Below, one piece after another: positions 39,155 to 42,096 of a stretch of 64,000 nt of DNA. The stretch lies in assembly GCF_018127925.1 (NCBI RefSeq), contig NZ_CP072348.1, positions 7,501 through 71,500 on the forward strand. Reading direction: 5' to 3'. The notes below the pieces were generated by a model. It searched no databases. It saw nothing but the letters and a program-made list of their open reading frames with translations, and had not been told where the DNA came from. The stretch is from Prevotella melaninogenica. GTDB lineage: Bacteria > Bacteroidota > Bacteroidia > Bacteroidales > Bacteroidaceae. Numbering within the stretch: position 1 is the first letter of the stretch; every line of letters begins with the position of its first letter. Made by a program: the position numbers and the translations under genes.

Positions 39155-39210
39155 TCGCGGGGGTGAGGCTTTTTTTTCTTCTTTTCCTTGCTCATTCAAT
39201 TTATTCTTCT

Positions 39211-39218
39211 TACCTTTG
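39211..39218 (+). promoter_or_regulatory. -7 promoter element of locus C
   Basis: TACCTTTG, followed by CCGCCGTGAAACAATTAGCA, as in locus B. The leader ATG is at 39239. Confidence 0.7.
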
Positions 39219-39238
39219 CCGCCGTGAAACAATTAGCA

Positions 39239-39501
39239 ATGACATATCAAGTGAACGAAGTACTGCAAAGAATTATCAGATTCTTTGCATCTTTTTGCAC
39301 TTTATCTTTGGTCAATCCAAATAATTTGCTAACACACACACACACACACACACACACACACACACACACACACAATATGCGCACCTAGCGTACAATAACA
39401 CATTTTTTCTTCTCGCATACGCGCGCGAAGCGTGCCGTAACCCCTGTAAACAAAGGACTTCTAGGAGTTTCCTTTGTTCGCTTTTTTATGCCCTTTTTTG
39501 A
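39239..39501 (+). CDS. phase-variable leader ORF (locus C); observed frame stops at 39388
   Basis: The ATG at 39239 starts MTYQVNEVLQRI. In the sequence as given it encodes 49 residues, with the 43-base AC tract read as a Thr-His repeat, and stops at TAG 39386-39388, before the terminator. A tract of 41 or 47 bases would read TAT GCG CAC CTA onward, through the hairpin at 39449-39478 and its T-run, to TGA 39499-39501, only 12 bases past the T-run. A 45-base tract would stop at TAA 39396-39398. This range is the maximal reading-through frame; the small-protein gene begins 55 bases later. Confidence 0.6.
39332..39374. repeat. (AC)21.5 dinucleotide microsatellite in leader of locus C
   Basis: A perfect 43-base AC tract, the longest of the three, inside the leader ORF. 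Preceded by a hairpin TTTGGtcaatCCAAA as in locus A. Confidence 0.95.
39449..39487 (+). terminator. leader terminator/attenuator, locus C
   Basis: AACAAAGGA and TCCTTTGTT pair (inner CT/AG pairs add to the stem) and are followed by CGCTTTTTT. The 30 bases before it carry the conserved GCATACGCGCGCGAAGCG segment seen in all three loci. Confidence 0.8.
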
Positions 39502-39556
39502 ACTCCATTTTAAGCAAAATAAGAACGAAATAACAACTATTTTAATCAATGAAGTA

Positions 39557-39760
39557 ATGAGAAAAAAGCAAGTAAAGAAGAGTTATTCTGCACCAGCGTG
39601 TATGATAATTCAAGTCAACGAAGTCACTTATTTGATGGATACGTCTTTCCCCAGTCAGCACAGAAAGGCAAACCATGCTACTGGTCCAGCTGCTGCTAAG
39701 GCAAGTCAATGGAATGATGAAGACTTAGAAGATGAAAACACATCTTCATGGGAAGACTAA
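39557..39760 (+). CDS. small YxAPxC-motif protein (locus C)
   Basis: A 67-residue protein with KKSYSAPACMIIQVNEVTYL, then MDTSFPSQHRKANHATGP and an acidic end TSSWED, strongly like the locus B protein. The frame is open further upstream to an ATG at 39488, but that lies at the end of the terminator T-run; the ATG at 39557 gives the start shared with locus B (MRKKQ). The lipoprotein follows after 33 bases. Function unknown. Confidence 0.75.
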   Translation: MRKKQVKKSYSAPACMIIQVNEVTYLMDTSFPSQHRKANHATGPAAAKASQWNDEDLEDENTSSWED

Positions 39761-39793
39761 CAGAGAGTTATTAACAAAGAGAACAAAGTAACA

Positions 39794-41377
39794 ATGAAGC
39801 AAACAATGAAACGACATTCATTCACATCACAACTAAAGTCCTTGGCACTTGTATTTGGTGTAGCCTTGGCTTTTGCATCCTGCGCTAATGAGGATGTTGC
39901 ACAGAACCCAACGAACCCCAATGAGGATAACGACAAGAACCTAACGACTTTCGTAGCAGGCGAAGAAGCTAAGACCCGTACCTCAATGGACTACACCAGT
40001 GGTAATTTCTATTGGGAAGCAGACGACTATATCTACGTAAAGGACGACGATGGCGTATTACAGAAGAGTACAAACGCCCCAACCCAAAAGGTAGCTGCTT
40101 TTAAGTATAAAGTTCCAGGTAAGTTTATAGTCCATAGCAGTTATAAGGTTTATTACTTGGGCAAATACAACTTCGGCGGCAACTCTGTAAGTATCTTGAC
40201 CAGCCAGAGCCAGACAGCTCCGGACAATACCGAGCACTTCGGCACAGCAGGCGATTACGGTACTGCTACCGCTACAAAGGTAACAGGTAAGAATCAGTTC
40301 GAGTTCGTGTTGGAGCATCAGCCAGCTTACTTGGTTTTCCAGCCTTACACAAGTAACACTATTCTACAAAACTGCTACTTAACTAAGGTAGAGGTAAGTT
40401 CTGACAATGATATAGCCGAGACCTACACTGTCAATACAACTACGGGTGCTTTGAAGGCTTCTGCAGGTACAGGTGGCAAGAATATTGTCTTGATAACAAA
40501 AGGCGGTAGCAATCCAAACGGCTTCCCACTGACTAACAGCGCAGCTAACGTAACCACTAACGGAGCTTACATGGTAATAAAGCCAGGAACTCATACCTTA
40601 AGGGTACGTTATTGGGTAAAGGACGTGGCAACAAATGTGGAGGGCACCATAACCAAGACATATCCATCCACAGCTTACGCTTCCAACACTTACTACGACA
40701 TGAAAGCAAACCTTGACGTGAAGAATTACGATGGCGACCATTACTACATGTGGGATGCAGAGAAACAGTACTGGAAGGGGCACGAATGGAATCTCGGTGG
40801 CAGCCAACCAACGCTGCCGACTCAGTCTGCCAGCAGCGATTACCCTCAGAGCAGCGGTGATACTTACAATCGTTGGTATCACGAGGGTGGCGGTTCCGGT
40901 GAATTCAATGCAACTCAGAGTTGCGCAGGTCTTCCTAACGTTAACGAGATGATATGGTACGTAGCAAAGGGTGATCCTCACTGGGATAGAACTGAATTAT
41001 GGACTAATATGGGGCATTTATGTCAAGGTGGTATGTGGTTTAAGAAGAAGGCATATATAAGTGGATACAATGCCAATACCGATGTTGACGGAATCGATAG
41101 ACGAACTTACGGAGGAGCTTTTACCGGTGCGTATTATTCTACTGATCTCCTCGAGGTAGTCGATGCAGGCAATTATTTTTACCTGCCCGCCTTGGGTGGC
41201 TATAGTTCTGGTCAGCTGAACGATCGTGACGGCTATAACCTCAGCGGTCACTATTGGTCGTCAAGTGCTCACCCATGGCATAGAGATGAAGCGTACAATT
41301 TGGAATTCGGCATGAACGGTTTCTCTGTGATAAACCGCGAACGCAACAATGGTTTTAGAGTCGGTGCTTTTGAGTAG
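39794..41377 (+). CDS. fimbrillin-like lipoprotein with lectin-like C-terminus (locus C)
   Basis: A 527-residue predicted surface lipoprotein with lipobox Cys30 (ALAFASCANED). It shares TRTSMDYTSGNFYWEADDYIYVKDDDG, FVLEHQPAYLVFQPYTSN and the WDAEKQYWKGHEW linker with locus B. The C-terminal domain has LWTNMGHLCQGGMWFKKK, YFYLPALGGYSSGQLN, SGHYWSSSAHPWHRDEAYNLEF and RNNGFRVGAFE, a C-type-lectin-like fold end. Two Met codons near the start (39794, 39806) are possible. GC content is higher than in neighbouring genes in the middle third. The HU gene follows after a 260-base gap with a palindrome array. Confidence 0.83.
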   Translation: MKQTMKRHSFTSQLKSLALVFGVALAFASCANEDVAQNPTNPNEDNDKNLTTFVAGEEAKTRTSMDYTSGNFYWEADDYIYVKDDDGVLQKSTNAPTQKVAAFKYKVPGKFIVHSSYKVYYLGKYNFGGNSVSILTSQSQTAPDNTEHFGTAGDYGTATATKVTGKNQFEFVLEHQPAYLVFQPYTSNTILQNCYLTKVEVSSDNDIAETYTVNTTTGALKASAGTGGKNIVLITKGGSNPNGFPLTNSAANVTTNGAYMVIKPGTHTLRVRYWVKDVATNVEGTITKTYPSTAYASNTYYDMKANLDVKNYDGDHYYMWDAEKQYWKGHEWNLGGSQPTLPTQSASSDYPQSSGDTYNRWYHEGGGSGEFNATQSCAGLPNVNEMIWYVAKGDPHWDRTELWTNMGHLCQGGMWFKKKAYISGYNANTDVDGIDRRTYGGAFTGAYYSTDLLEVVDAGNYFYLPALGGYSSGQLNDRDGYNLSGHYWSSSAHPWHRDEAYNLEFGMNGFSVINRERNNGFRVGAFE

Positions 41378-41480
41378 TCCTTATGATTGCTCCTTTTAGA
41401 GGCGTCGTCCTCTAAAAGGCGACACCTTAAGCACCGCCGTAAGGCGATTTAAATAGAATATAGAATAACGAGTCTCAAAG

Positions 41481-41583
41481 GTGTTAAACACTCTTGGCTG
41501 TAGGTGTTTAACACCTTTGATCAATAGTGTTAAACACCCTTGATGAAGAGTCTTAAACACCCTTGAAACGAAGTGTTGAACAC
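41481..41583. repeat. tandem palindrome array, 23-bp period, five units (GTGTTAAACAC type)
   Basis: GTGTTAAACAC, GTGTTTAACAC, GTGTTAAACAC, GTCTTAAACAC and GTGTTGAACAC begin at 41481, 41504, 41527, 41550 and 41573, each exactly 23 bases apart, separated by CTTGA-like spacers. It ends 55 bases before the HU ATG of locus C. Confidence 0.9.
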
Positions 41584-41637
41584 CAATATAAAAGAGTTTT
41601 AATAACATATTTATCAACCATTTAAAAGTATAATGCT

Positions 41638-42096
41638 ATGGTAGAATTCGAAGTAAAATCAAAGAAGCAAACAATCGGGAAGAAGAAGGGGCAGACGGTG
41701 TACTATGCCGTGCCCAAGAGTAACCAACACATGACGCTTGATGCGCTTTGCGACATGATTATGGACGAGACATCGCTCTCGCGTGGTGATGTGATGAATA
41801 CGCTTATCACGCTGGGCAAGATGGCGTGCCGTTCGTTGAAGATGGGTGCCAGTATTGACCTTGGTGACCTAGGTTCGCTTCGCATTTACTTCCCTCCAAA
41901 GATGATGGACGACATGAAGGACGTGACAGCTGCCACACTCAAAACTCCTAAGATTATCTTCACCCCTAAAGCTAAAATGCGTGAGGCTGCCCATGCTGCT
42001 GAGGTGTCGGTAGATAATCCTGCTAGGAAGAAAGAGCCAGCGAAAAAACCAGAGAAGAAGGAGAATAAAGAAGAGAATGGCCCAGTGGCAGGGTAA
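41638..42096 (+). CDS. HU-related DNA-binding protein (locus C)
   Basis: A 152-residue HU-related protein closely similar to that of locus A: VEFEVKSKKQTIGKKKGQTVYYAVPKS at the start, TSLSRGDVMNTLITLGKMA in the middle and GASIDLGDLGSLRIYFPPKM in the arm region. The tail is Lys/Glu rich (KKPEKKENKEENG). It is the last gene of locus C, after the lipoprotein. It may bind the array at 41481 or shape the nucleoid; untested. Confidence 0.88.
   Translation: MVEFEVKSKKQTIGKKKGQTVYYAVPKSNQHMTLDALCDMIMDETSLSRGDVMNTLITLGKMACRSLKMGASIDLGDLGSLRIYFPPKMMDDMKDVTAATLKTPKIIFTPKAKMREAAHAAEVSVDNPARKKEPAKKPEKKENKEENGPVAG

Follow-up and report, generated by a model that had tools for sequence, protein, structure and literature searches.

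In trp-type leader-peptide attenuation, the position of the ribosome on the leader governs terminator folding. Slippage of short repeats shifts the reading frame of in-gene simple-sequence-repeat contingency loci, for example opa, and the invertible promoters of Bacteroidota switch surface operons ON and OFF heritably. Leader-peptide phase attenuation is documented at two pilus loci, pil1 and pil3, of one Streptococcus (PMC3894217). Danne et al. 2014 report for S. gallolyticus pil1 that changes in a GCAGA repeat within a leader open reading frame (ORF) shift its stop codon into or beyond a terminator and that transcription rises; in mutants the start codon or the terminator was removed or stops were added, with expression lowered when the start codon is lost and the locus locked ON when the terminator is deleted (PMC3894217). 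Here we analyze a window of 64,000 nucleotides (nt) of Prevotella melaninogenica (contig NZ_CP072348.1, positions 7,501 to 71,500 of the forward strand; "the window" is this whole stretch), in which three loci, A, B and C, carry leaders that are very probably phase-variable, translation-coupled transcription attenuators. The original prediction took this combination to be unknown, a claim that its earlier experimental demonstration in S. gallolyticus shows to be wrong (PMC3894217). The mechanism is not new, because by its anatomy the Prevotella system works like pil1.

The three loci are built in the same order. First comes a TACCTTTG box of the TAnnTTTG type, the Bacteroidota -7 promoter consensus (PMC7366714), and then a leader ORF that reads into an uninterrupted dinucleotide repeat, which is CT19 in A, AC13 in B and AC21 in C. 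A T-tailed hairpin, T2, with the stem AACAAAGGACTT..TTTCCTTTGTT and a T-run, lies ~75 nt downstream of this tract, followed by a three-gene operon for a small YxAPxC protein, a lipoprotein of ~530 amino acids (aa) and an HU-HIG protein (Pfam PF18291). The features are as follows (window positions).

39211..39218, + strand: locus C predicted -7 promoter box TACCTTTG, of the Bacteroidota TAnnTTTG type (from the sequence; consensus in PMC7366714)
39239..39388, + strand: locus C leader ORF, from ATG 39239 (alternative GTG 39224) through the tract to TAG 39386-39388; predicted OFF
39264..39289, + strand: locus C T1, a terminator-like hairpin in the leader before the tract, TGCAAAGAATTATCAGATTCTTTGCA plus T-rich tail; listed by the terminator scan
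39332..39374, + strand: locus C AC tract, 21 units
39449..39487, + strand: locus C T2, putative attenuator hairpin (39449-39478) and T-run (39482-39487); covariation in divergent copies, unlisted by the terminator scan
39557..39760, + strand: locus C small YxAPxC protein; in-frame ATG upstream at 39488
39794..41377, + strand: locus C predicted fimbrillin-like lipoprotein with lectin-like C-terminal tail
41481..41584, + strand: locus C array of ~23-bp palindromes between the lipoprotein and HU genes
41638..42096, + strand: locus C HU-HIG family protein (Pfam PF18291, E 2e-21; NCBIfam TIGR01201)
34289..34296, - strand: locus B promoter box TACCTTTG
34131..34268, - strand: locus B leader ORF, predicted OFF
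34149..34175, - strand: locus B AC tract, 13 units
34045..34075, - strand: locus B putative attenuator hairpin T2
33552..33758, - strand: locus B small YxAPxC protein
31911..33515, - strand: locus B lipoprotein
31647..31784, - strand: locus B palindrome array
31086..31532, - strand: locus B HU-HIG protein (Pfam PF18291)
8629..8636, - strand: locus A promoter box TACCTTTG
8404..8604, - strand: locus A leader ORF, predicted OFF
8420..8457, - strand: locus A CT tract, 19 units
8315..8346, - strand: locus A putative attenuator hairpin T2
7809..8033, - strand: locus A small YxAPxC protein
6166..7761, - strand: locus A lipoprotein
5788..5897, - strand: locus A palindrome array, ACCCAGC..GCTGGGT
5258..5716, - strand: locus A HU-HIG protein (Pfam PF18291)

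The A, B and C tracts are precisely the dinucleotide arrays that Tandem Repeats Finder reports in the window (score >= 40), and the hairpin pattern matches three times there against 0 in 100 shuffles. At each locus the leader frame as sequenced ends before T2 and one other frame crosses it, the read-through frame of C terminating 20 nt beyond the hairpin. Sequence, ORFs, tracts, hairpins and PF18291 bear out the common design first proposed for the three loci, and the frame reading agrees with the accompanying claim that all three leaders stand in a stopped, predicted OFF frame. The frame rule itself fared less evenly. Two frames stop and one crosses T2 at A, B and C, which is weak evidence alone, because one open frame occurs in 0.23-0.54 of dinucleotide shuffles (12 cluster representatives). 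The arrangement is kept between loci, but past the CGCGCG stretch the read-through frame of C is not homologous to that of B, because C has one CG fewer.

Nor did the initial count of three operons survive the search of the whole genome (3.36 Mb), which holds at least 60 loci, 52 recognized by hairpin and 8 by tract. The hairpin pattern gave 52 matches against 0 for the reversed pattern. In each of the first 50 copies (3 in the window and 47 elsewhere), a tract of 6-27 AC units or 9-37 CT units comes to its end 70-76 nt ahead of the hairpin, and the remaining two copies are also tract-bearing. Searches for tracts of ~7 or more units (AC runs from A, CT runs from C) gave 40 AC and 19 CT matches, 51 of them at known hairpins; the remaining 8 mark additional loci, in which the hairpin varies and the overall design does not, and 59/59 long AC/CT tract matches fall within the leader family. 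The small protein, a lipoprotein-sized ORF and HU lie downstream in 49 of the 52 hairpin loci, the exceptions being L011, L040 and L049.

This system resembles each of the regulatory types named above in part. As in trp-type attenuation, ribosome position would decide terminator folding; unlike it, the Prevotella leaders give no indication of amino-acid sensing, and the decision would be heritable, set by DNA repeat length. With opa-type loci they would share a reading frame shifted by short-repeat slippage, but the tract has a leader of its own and in most loci stays outside the switched gene. Invertible promoters occur in the same phylum and would have in common with the leaders the heritable switching of surface operons, whereas no conserved inverted repeat surrounds the A, B and C promoters and 121-nt repeats flank the whole C cassette. 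No inverted pair of >= 12 nt closely brackets the B or C promoter; that of A is bracketed by two T/A-rich 21-nt arms (8493-8513 and 8657-8677, 86%).

The likeness is closest with pil1/pil3, where an out-of-frame unit change in a leader-ORF repeat shifts the stop, which otherwise precedes the terminator hairpin, into or past it; the operon under control encodes a pilus, a surface adhesin, and OFF is the majority state (PMC3894217). The repeats there are GCAGA pentamers at two Firmicute loci (PMC3894217), in contrast to AC/CT dimers at 60 or more Prevotella loci; at pil1 22 repeats are OFF and both 21 and 23 ON (PMC3894217), in contrast to two predicted OFF frames and one ON frame; and the Prevotella payload is a predicted fimbrillin-like lipoprotein with HU-HIG, AC-class leaders having an extra pre-tract terminator-like hairpin. 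New relative to pil1 are the phylum, the dinucleotide unit, the scale, the predicted, mostly OFF state, the payload and the two-OFF/one-ON frame scheme. The literature searched, from which subscription journals were mostly absent, holds no description of such a switch in Prevotella, and a comparably large array of leader switches did not turn up there either.

The design extends to other species. The GTDB genus, a broad one, was sampled with 276 genomes (completeness at least 90%), and the exact hairpin occurs in 10 of them, including P. veroralis, P. vespertina, P. jejuni, P. pallens and Hoylesella marshii; in one of the 10, G299, the match is unrelated sequence beside a tRNA. A covariance model spanning tract end to T-run (cut-off E <= 1e-5) matches in 43 of the 276, six of them with >=13 matches each. 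In a family sample of 344 genomes the exact hairpin is restricted to the genus, and in an order-wide sample (344 genomes, 189 genera), which has few genus members and stricter filters, the genome studied here gave the sole model match. A hairpin scan of viral contigs gave no match, and Rfam at gathering thresholds places no known family at the leaders.

In the mechanism that we propose, RNA polymerase would start at TAnnTTTG and a ribosome would start on the leader ORF. With a unit number that sets either of two frames (OFF), the ribosome would halt ~55-75 nt before T2, leaving the hairpin to fold and transcription to end. In the third frame (ON), it would cross T2 and block its folding, and the operon for the small protein, the fimbrillin-like lipoprotein and HU would be transcribed. 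Slipped strands that add or drop one 2-bp unit would switch the state heritably. The T1 hairpin of AC-class leaders might test whether the leader is translated at all, T2 then testing the frame, and the ~60 cassettes would form a switchable adhesin repertoire, with most cassettes OFF in the clone that was sequenced. The core of the original prediction, frame-switched translation into a terminator, gains comparative support from ON-frame depletion, hairpin covariation and the presence of the design in other species; its confinement to three operons does not stand.

The frame evidence comes from two sets of loci. The first comprises 96 loci of nine genomes, 95 of them usable after removal of L083, which is cut by a contig end. 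The second comprises 83 divergent model matches of 23 genomes, among the matches listed, ~20 further listed matches lying outside it; two of its genomes, G094 and G109, each also hold a first-set locus. A single read-through frame among the three post-tract frames is found in 92/95 first-set loci, and both OFF stops lie <= 25 nt from the tract in 90/95. Among the 80 usable second-set loci, 71 have a single frame that crosses the hairpin, 8 have two and 1 has none; the comparison with related genomes that had been suggested at the outset shows the same design in other species. For 12 cluster representatives, one open frame with both others stopping within 22 nt occurs in only 0.04-0.08 per dinucleotide shuffle. 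A TAnnTTTG box and an ATG/GTG leader open into the AC/CT tract accompany 91/95 loci of the first set and 71/80 of the second.

Unit numbers are biased modulo 3. The ON test covered loci in which a TAnnTTTG box is present, a leader begun by ATG or GTG stays open into the tract, and no more and no fewer than one frame reads through. This set aside L056 and L073 (no read-through frame), L081 (two such frames, leader broken), L020 and L021 (leader broken) and L066 (no -7 box) from the first set, leaving 89 loci, and 3 contig-end cuts, 9 loci without a promoter-plus-start leader and 7 without a single read-through frame from the second, leaving 64. Leaders occupy the read-through frame at 7/89 loci of the first set (5/57 in the P. 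melaninogenica genome itself, the predicted ON loci there being L042, L046, L148, L149 and L151) and 9/64 of the second (p = 4e-4 alone). Combined, this makes 16/153 against one third by chance (one-sided p = 4e-11), the p-values being indicative because the paralogues are related and the counts not fully independent. Slippage without translation would yield one third ON; the bias hence suggests that the tract is most likely translated and that selection acts on the frame in which ribosomes leave it. Stopped leaders split about evenly between the two OFF frames in the AC class (27 and 22), whereas the CT class is less even (19 and 10). At flank-matched sites of different species, tract lengths are unequal in 20/21 pairs, of which 8 differ in tract type too and several share loci or may match via repeats.

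Hairpin T2 is preserved by compensation in the divergent copies. In the 83 second-set matches (82 distinct), whose alignment had been fitted to the model structure, 98.8% of the cells for its 11 pairs are paired against 94.2 in shuffles, double-change cells number 60 against 18.9 (standard deviation 3.2), and 6/11 pairs are changed on both sides, whereas slid versions of the hairpin pair in 49-68%. At L154 and L155 a longer hairpin has only the CAAAGG/CCTTTG core in common with the standard one; the design is kept, and one compensated pair differs between the two. The T-rich tail has a mean of 7.3 T in 12 nt (range 2-9). A pre-tract stem, in most cases with a tail rich in T, is present in 58/59 AC-class leaders, T1 being the locus C case; folding of the whole leader before the tract is mixed (z-score -2.9 in C, 0.0 in B and -2.5 for part of A). 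Two further stems lie near T2. A conserved GCGCGCGAAGCG GC-rich hairpin stands between tract and T2 (39414-39440 in the window, with equivalents in other loci), and A and B have a second inverted repeat, GGCAGGCAGT..CTGTCTGCC, without a T-run in the interval from T2 to the small gene (8163-8193 in A and 33890-33922 in B).

Besides the relatedness of paralogues and the fitted alignment, several observations weigh against attenuation at T2 under frame control. The comparison material consists of genome sequences, one per species. Among the divergent matches the T2 pair-type count is no higher than in shuffles (13 vs 13.1), and covariation is almost nil in 38 closer copies (2/11 pairs, term -0.07). 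T2 of A, B and C is bulged and modest in energy (-9.9 to -11.3 kcal/mol, z -1.7 to -2.7); T2 of locus C is absent from the output of a generic terminator scan, in which terminators numbered 3 against 3.0 in shuffles. Substitution-shuffle tests found no significant stop avoidance in the leader or in the read-through frame, and there is no sign of leader-peptide constraint, because leader variation is even over the three codon positions (223/226/220). The strict promoter-plus-start test is failed by 4/95 first-set and 9/80 second-set leaders, and L056 and L073 offer no frame that could be ON. In favor of the attenuator reading, ON loci of the P. melaninogenica genome are overrepresented among variant hairpins (3/8 vs 2/52 with the standard hairpin; Fisher p = 0.014, post hoc). 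A weaker terminator relaxing frame selection would fit L148 and L151 (-6.8 kcal/mol) and not L149, whose variant hairpin is not weaker by energy (-9.4 vs -9.0).

The four failing first-set leaders are L020, L021 and L081, broken before the tract, and L066, with an altered -7 box. The three breaks are apparent one-nucleotide deletions in homopolymer runs, which possibly lock the cassette OFF and could also be sequencing errors.

The modest energy of T2 and its absence from a simple terminator scan, together with the ~60 nt of untranslated RNA between the OFF stops and T2, would also suit a scheme in which the same frame switch operates and the early stop acts mainly by Rho-dependent polarity or RNA decay, T2 being a minor or processing hairpin. 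We regard this as unlikely, since a T-rich stretch follows T2, the hairpin is preserved by compensation in divergent copies, and terminator deletion locks pil1 ON in S. gallolyticus (PMC3894217).

The position of the read-through stops bears on a different reading, that of a contingency gene whose ON frame fuses the leader to the small protein, the hairpin being incidental. In 13/75 first-set loci the read-through stop does lie past the small-gene start, and 10 of those 13 use the frame and stop codon of the small gene, a count that also tells against the attenuator reading. The read-through frame ends upstream of the small gene in the other 62/75, however, which places the tract outside the switched coding sequence and indicates that a fusion product is not the general purpose. 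Across 92 loci the ON frame continues beyond the hairpin for a median of 168 nt (minimum 3) before it stops. Given also the covariation of T2 and the early end of the locus C frame, we consider the fusion reading very improbable.

The stopped state is the majority, 137/153, and with a GC-rich hairpin between the stops and T2 one might reverse the polarity, taking the stopped frames as the expressed state and the read-through frame as a rare OFF state. This would demand that a read-through ribosome favor termination, contrary to the pil1 mutants, and nearly all 60 adhesins would be expressed together, which would make a switch pointless; such a reversal is highly unlikely. That the tract is an untranslated mutational hotspot without a link to the hairpin, spread by recent duplication, is hardly credible: the copies are similar, one open frame in three is common by chance and substitution-level tests are not significant, but unit numbers are biased modulo 3 in both sets, and the design holds over divergent copies and two tract types with all tract matches at the same place.

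Translation-coupled attenuation would control a payload that is probably presented at the surface. The N-terminal fold of the lipoprotein is predicted to belong to the FimA/Mfa-type fimbrillin superfamily of Bacteroidales fimbrillin-like adhesins, the structure-search matches covering mainly model residues 47-408; neither the lipoprotein nor the small protein matches a Pfam or NCBIfam family above cut-off. The C-terminal tails of the lipoproteins vary in a lectin-like pattern, and a diversity-generating retroelement (DGR) was therefore considered. It was set aside after three RVT_1 matches were found in the genome, the two proteins examined being, by eye, not DGR-like. Two of the RVT_1 genes, L247 and L248, are adjacent (G000:C1:524355-526243; 396 and 639 aa) and, judging by eye from the 396-aa protein, may form a paired defence system, and L246 (C2:1524203) was judged by eye to be a retron-like reverse transcriptase.

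HU-HIG is largely a cassette component in this genome, 56 of its 65 matches lying inside the 60 cassette regions. An array of palindromes with a ~22-bp period precedes each HU gene of these loci in the window, and across 55 cassettes the DNA before HU tracks the HU protein type nearly independently of the lipoprotein. The literature search on HU-HIG returned only unrelated titles. Taken together, these data can tentatively be read as a repertoire in which ~60 independently slipping attenuators keep nearly all adhesins OFF so that few are shown per clone, and in which HU-HIG proteins, matched to their own ~22-bp palindrome arrays and moved as modules, may cross-regulate the expressed set; this joint reading is possible, somewhat short of an even chance.

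The logic described for one Streptococcus now appears in another phylum, in dozens of copies per genome in several oral-type Prevotella relatives, before a large family of adhesin-like lipoproteins. If the attenuator reading is true, expression states would be readable from genome sequence via repeat units modulo 3, surface variation of an abundant oral commensal group would be explained, and the loci would offer a ready set of natural terminators and leaders on which to measure how ribosomes and terminators are coupled.

Some elements of the window lie outside the three cassettes. A stand-alone HU-HIG gene is found at 61042-61476 (C2:68542), and tandem arrays of ~22-23 bp occur at 12837-12920, 43762-43813, 60564-60614 and 60947-60993. 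The C cassette is flanked by an inverted ~180-bp pair resembling miniature inverted-repeat transposable elements, with ends GAGGGTGTGTCAAAATGCAAAT (38977-39156 and 42192-42372), and a 493-bp element with similar ends lies beside B (30553-31045).

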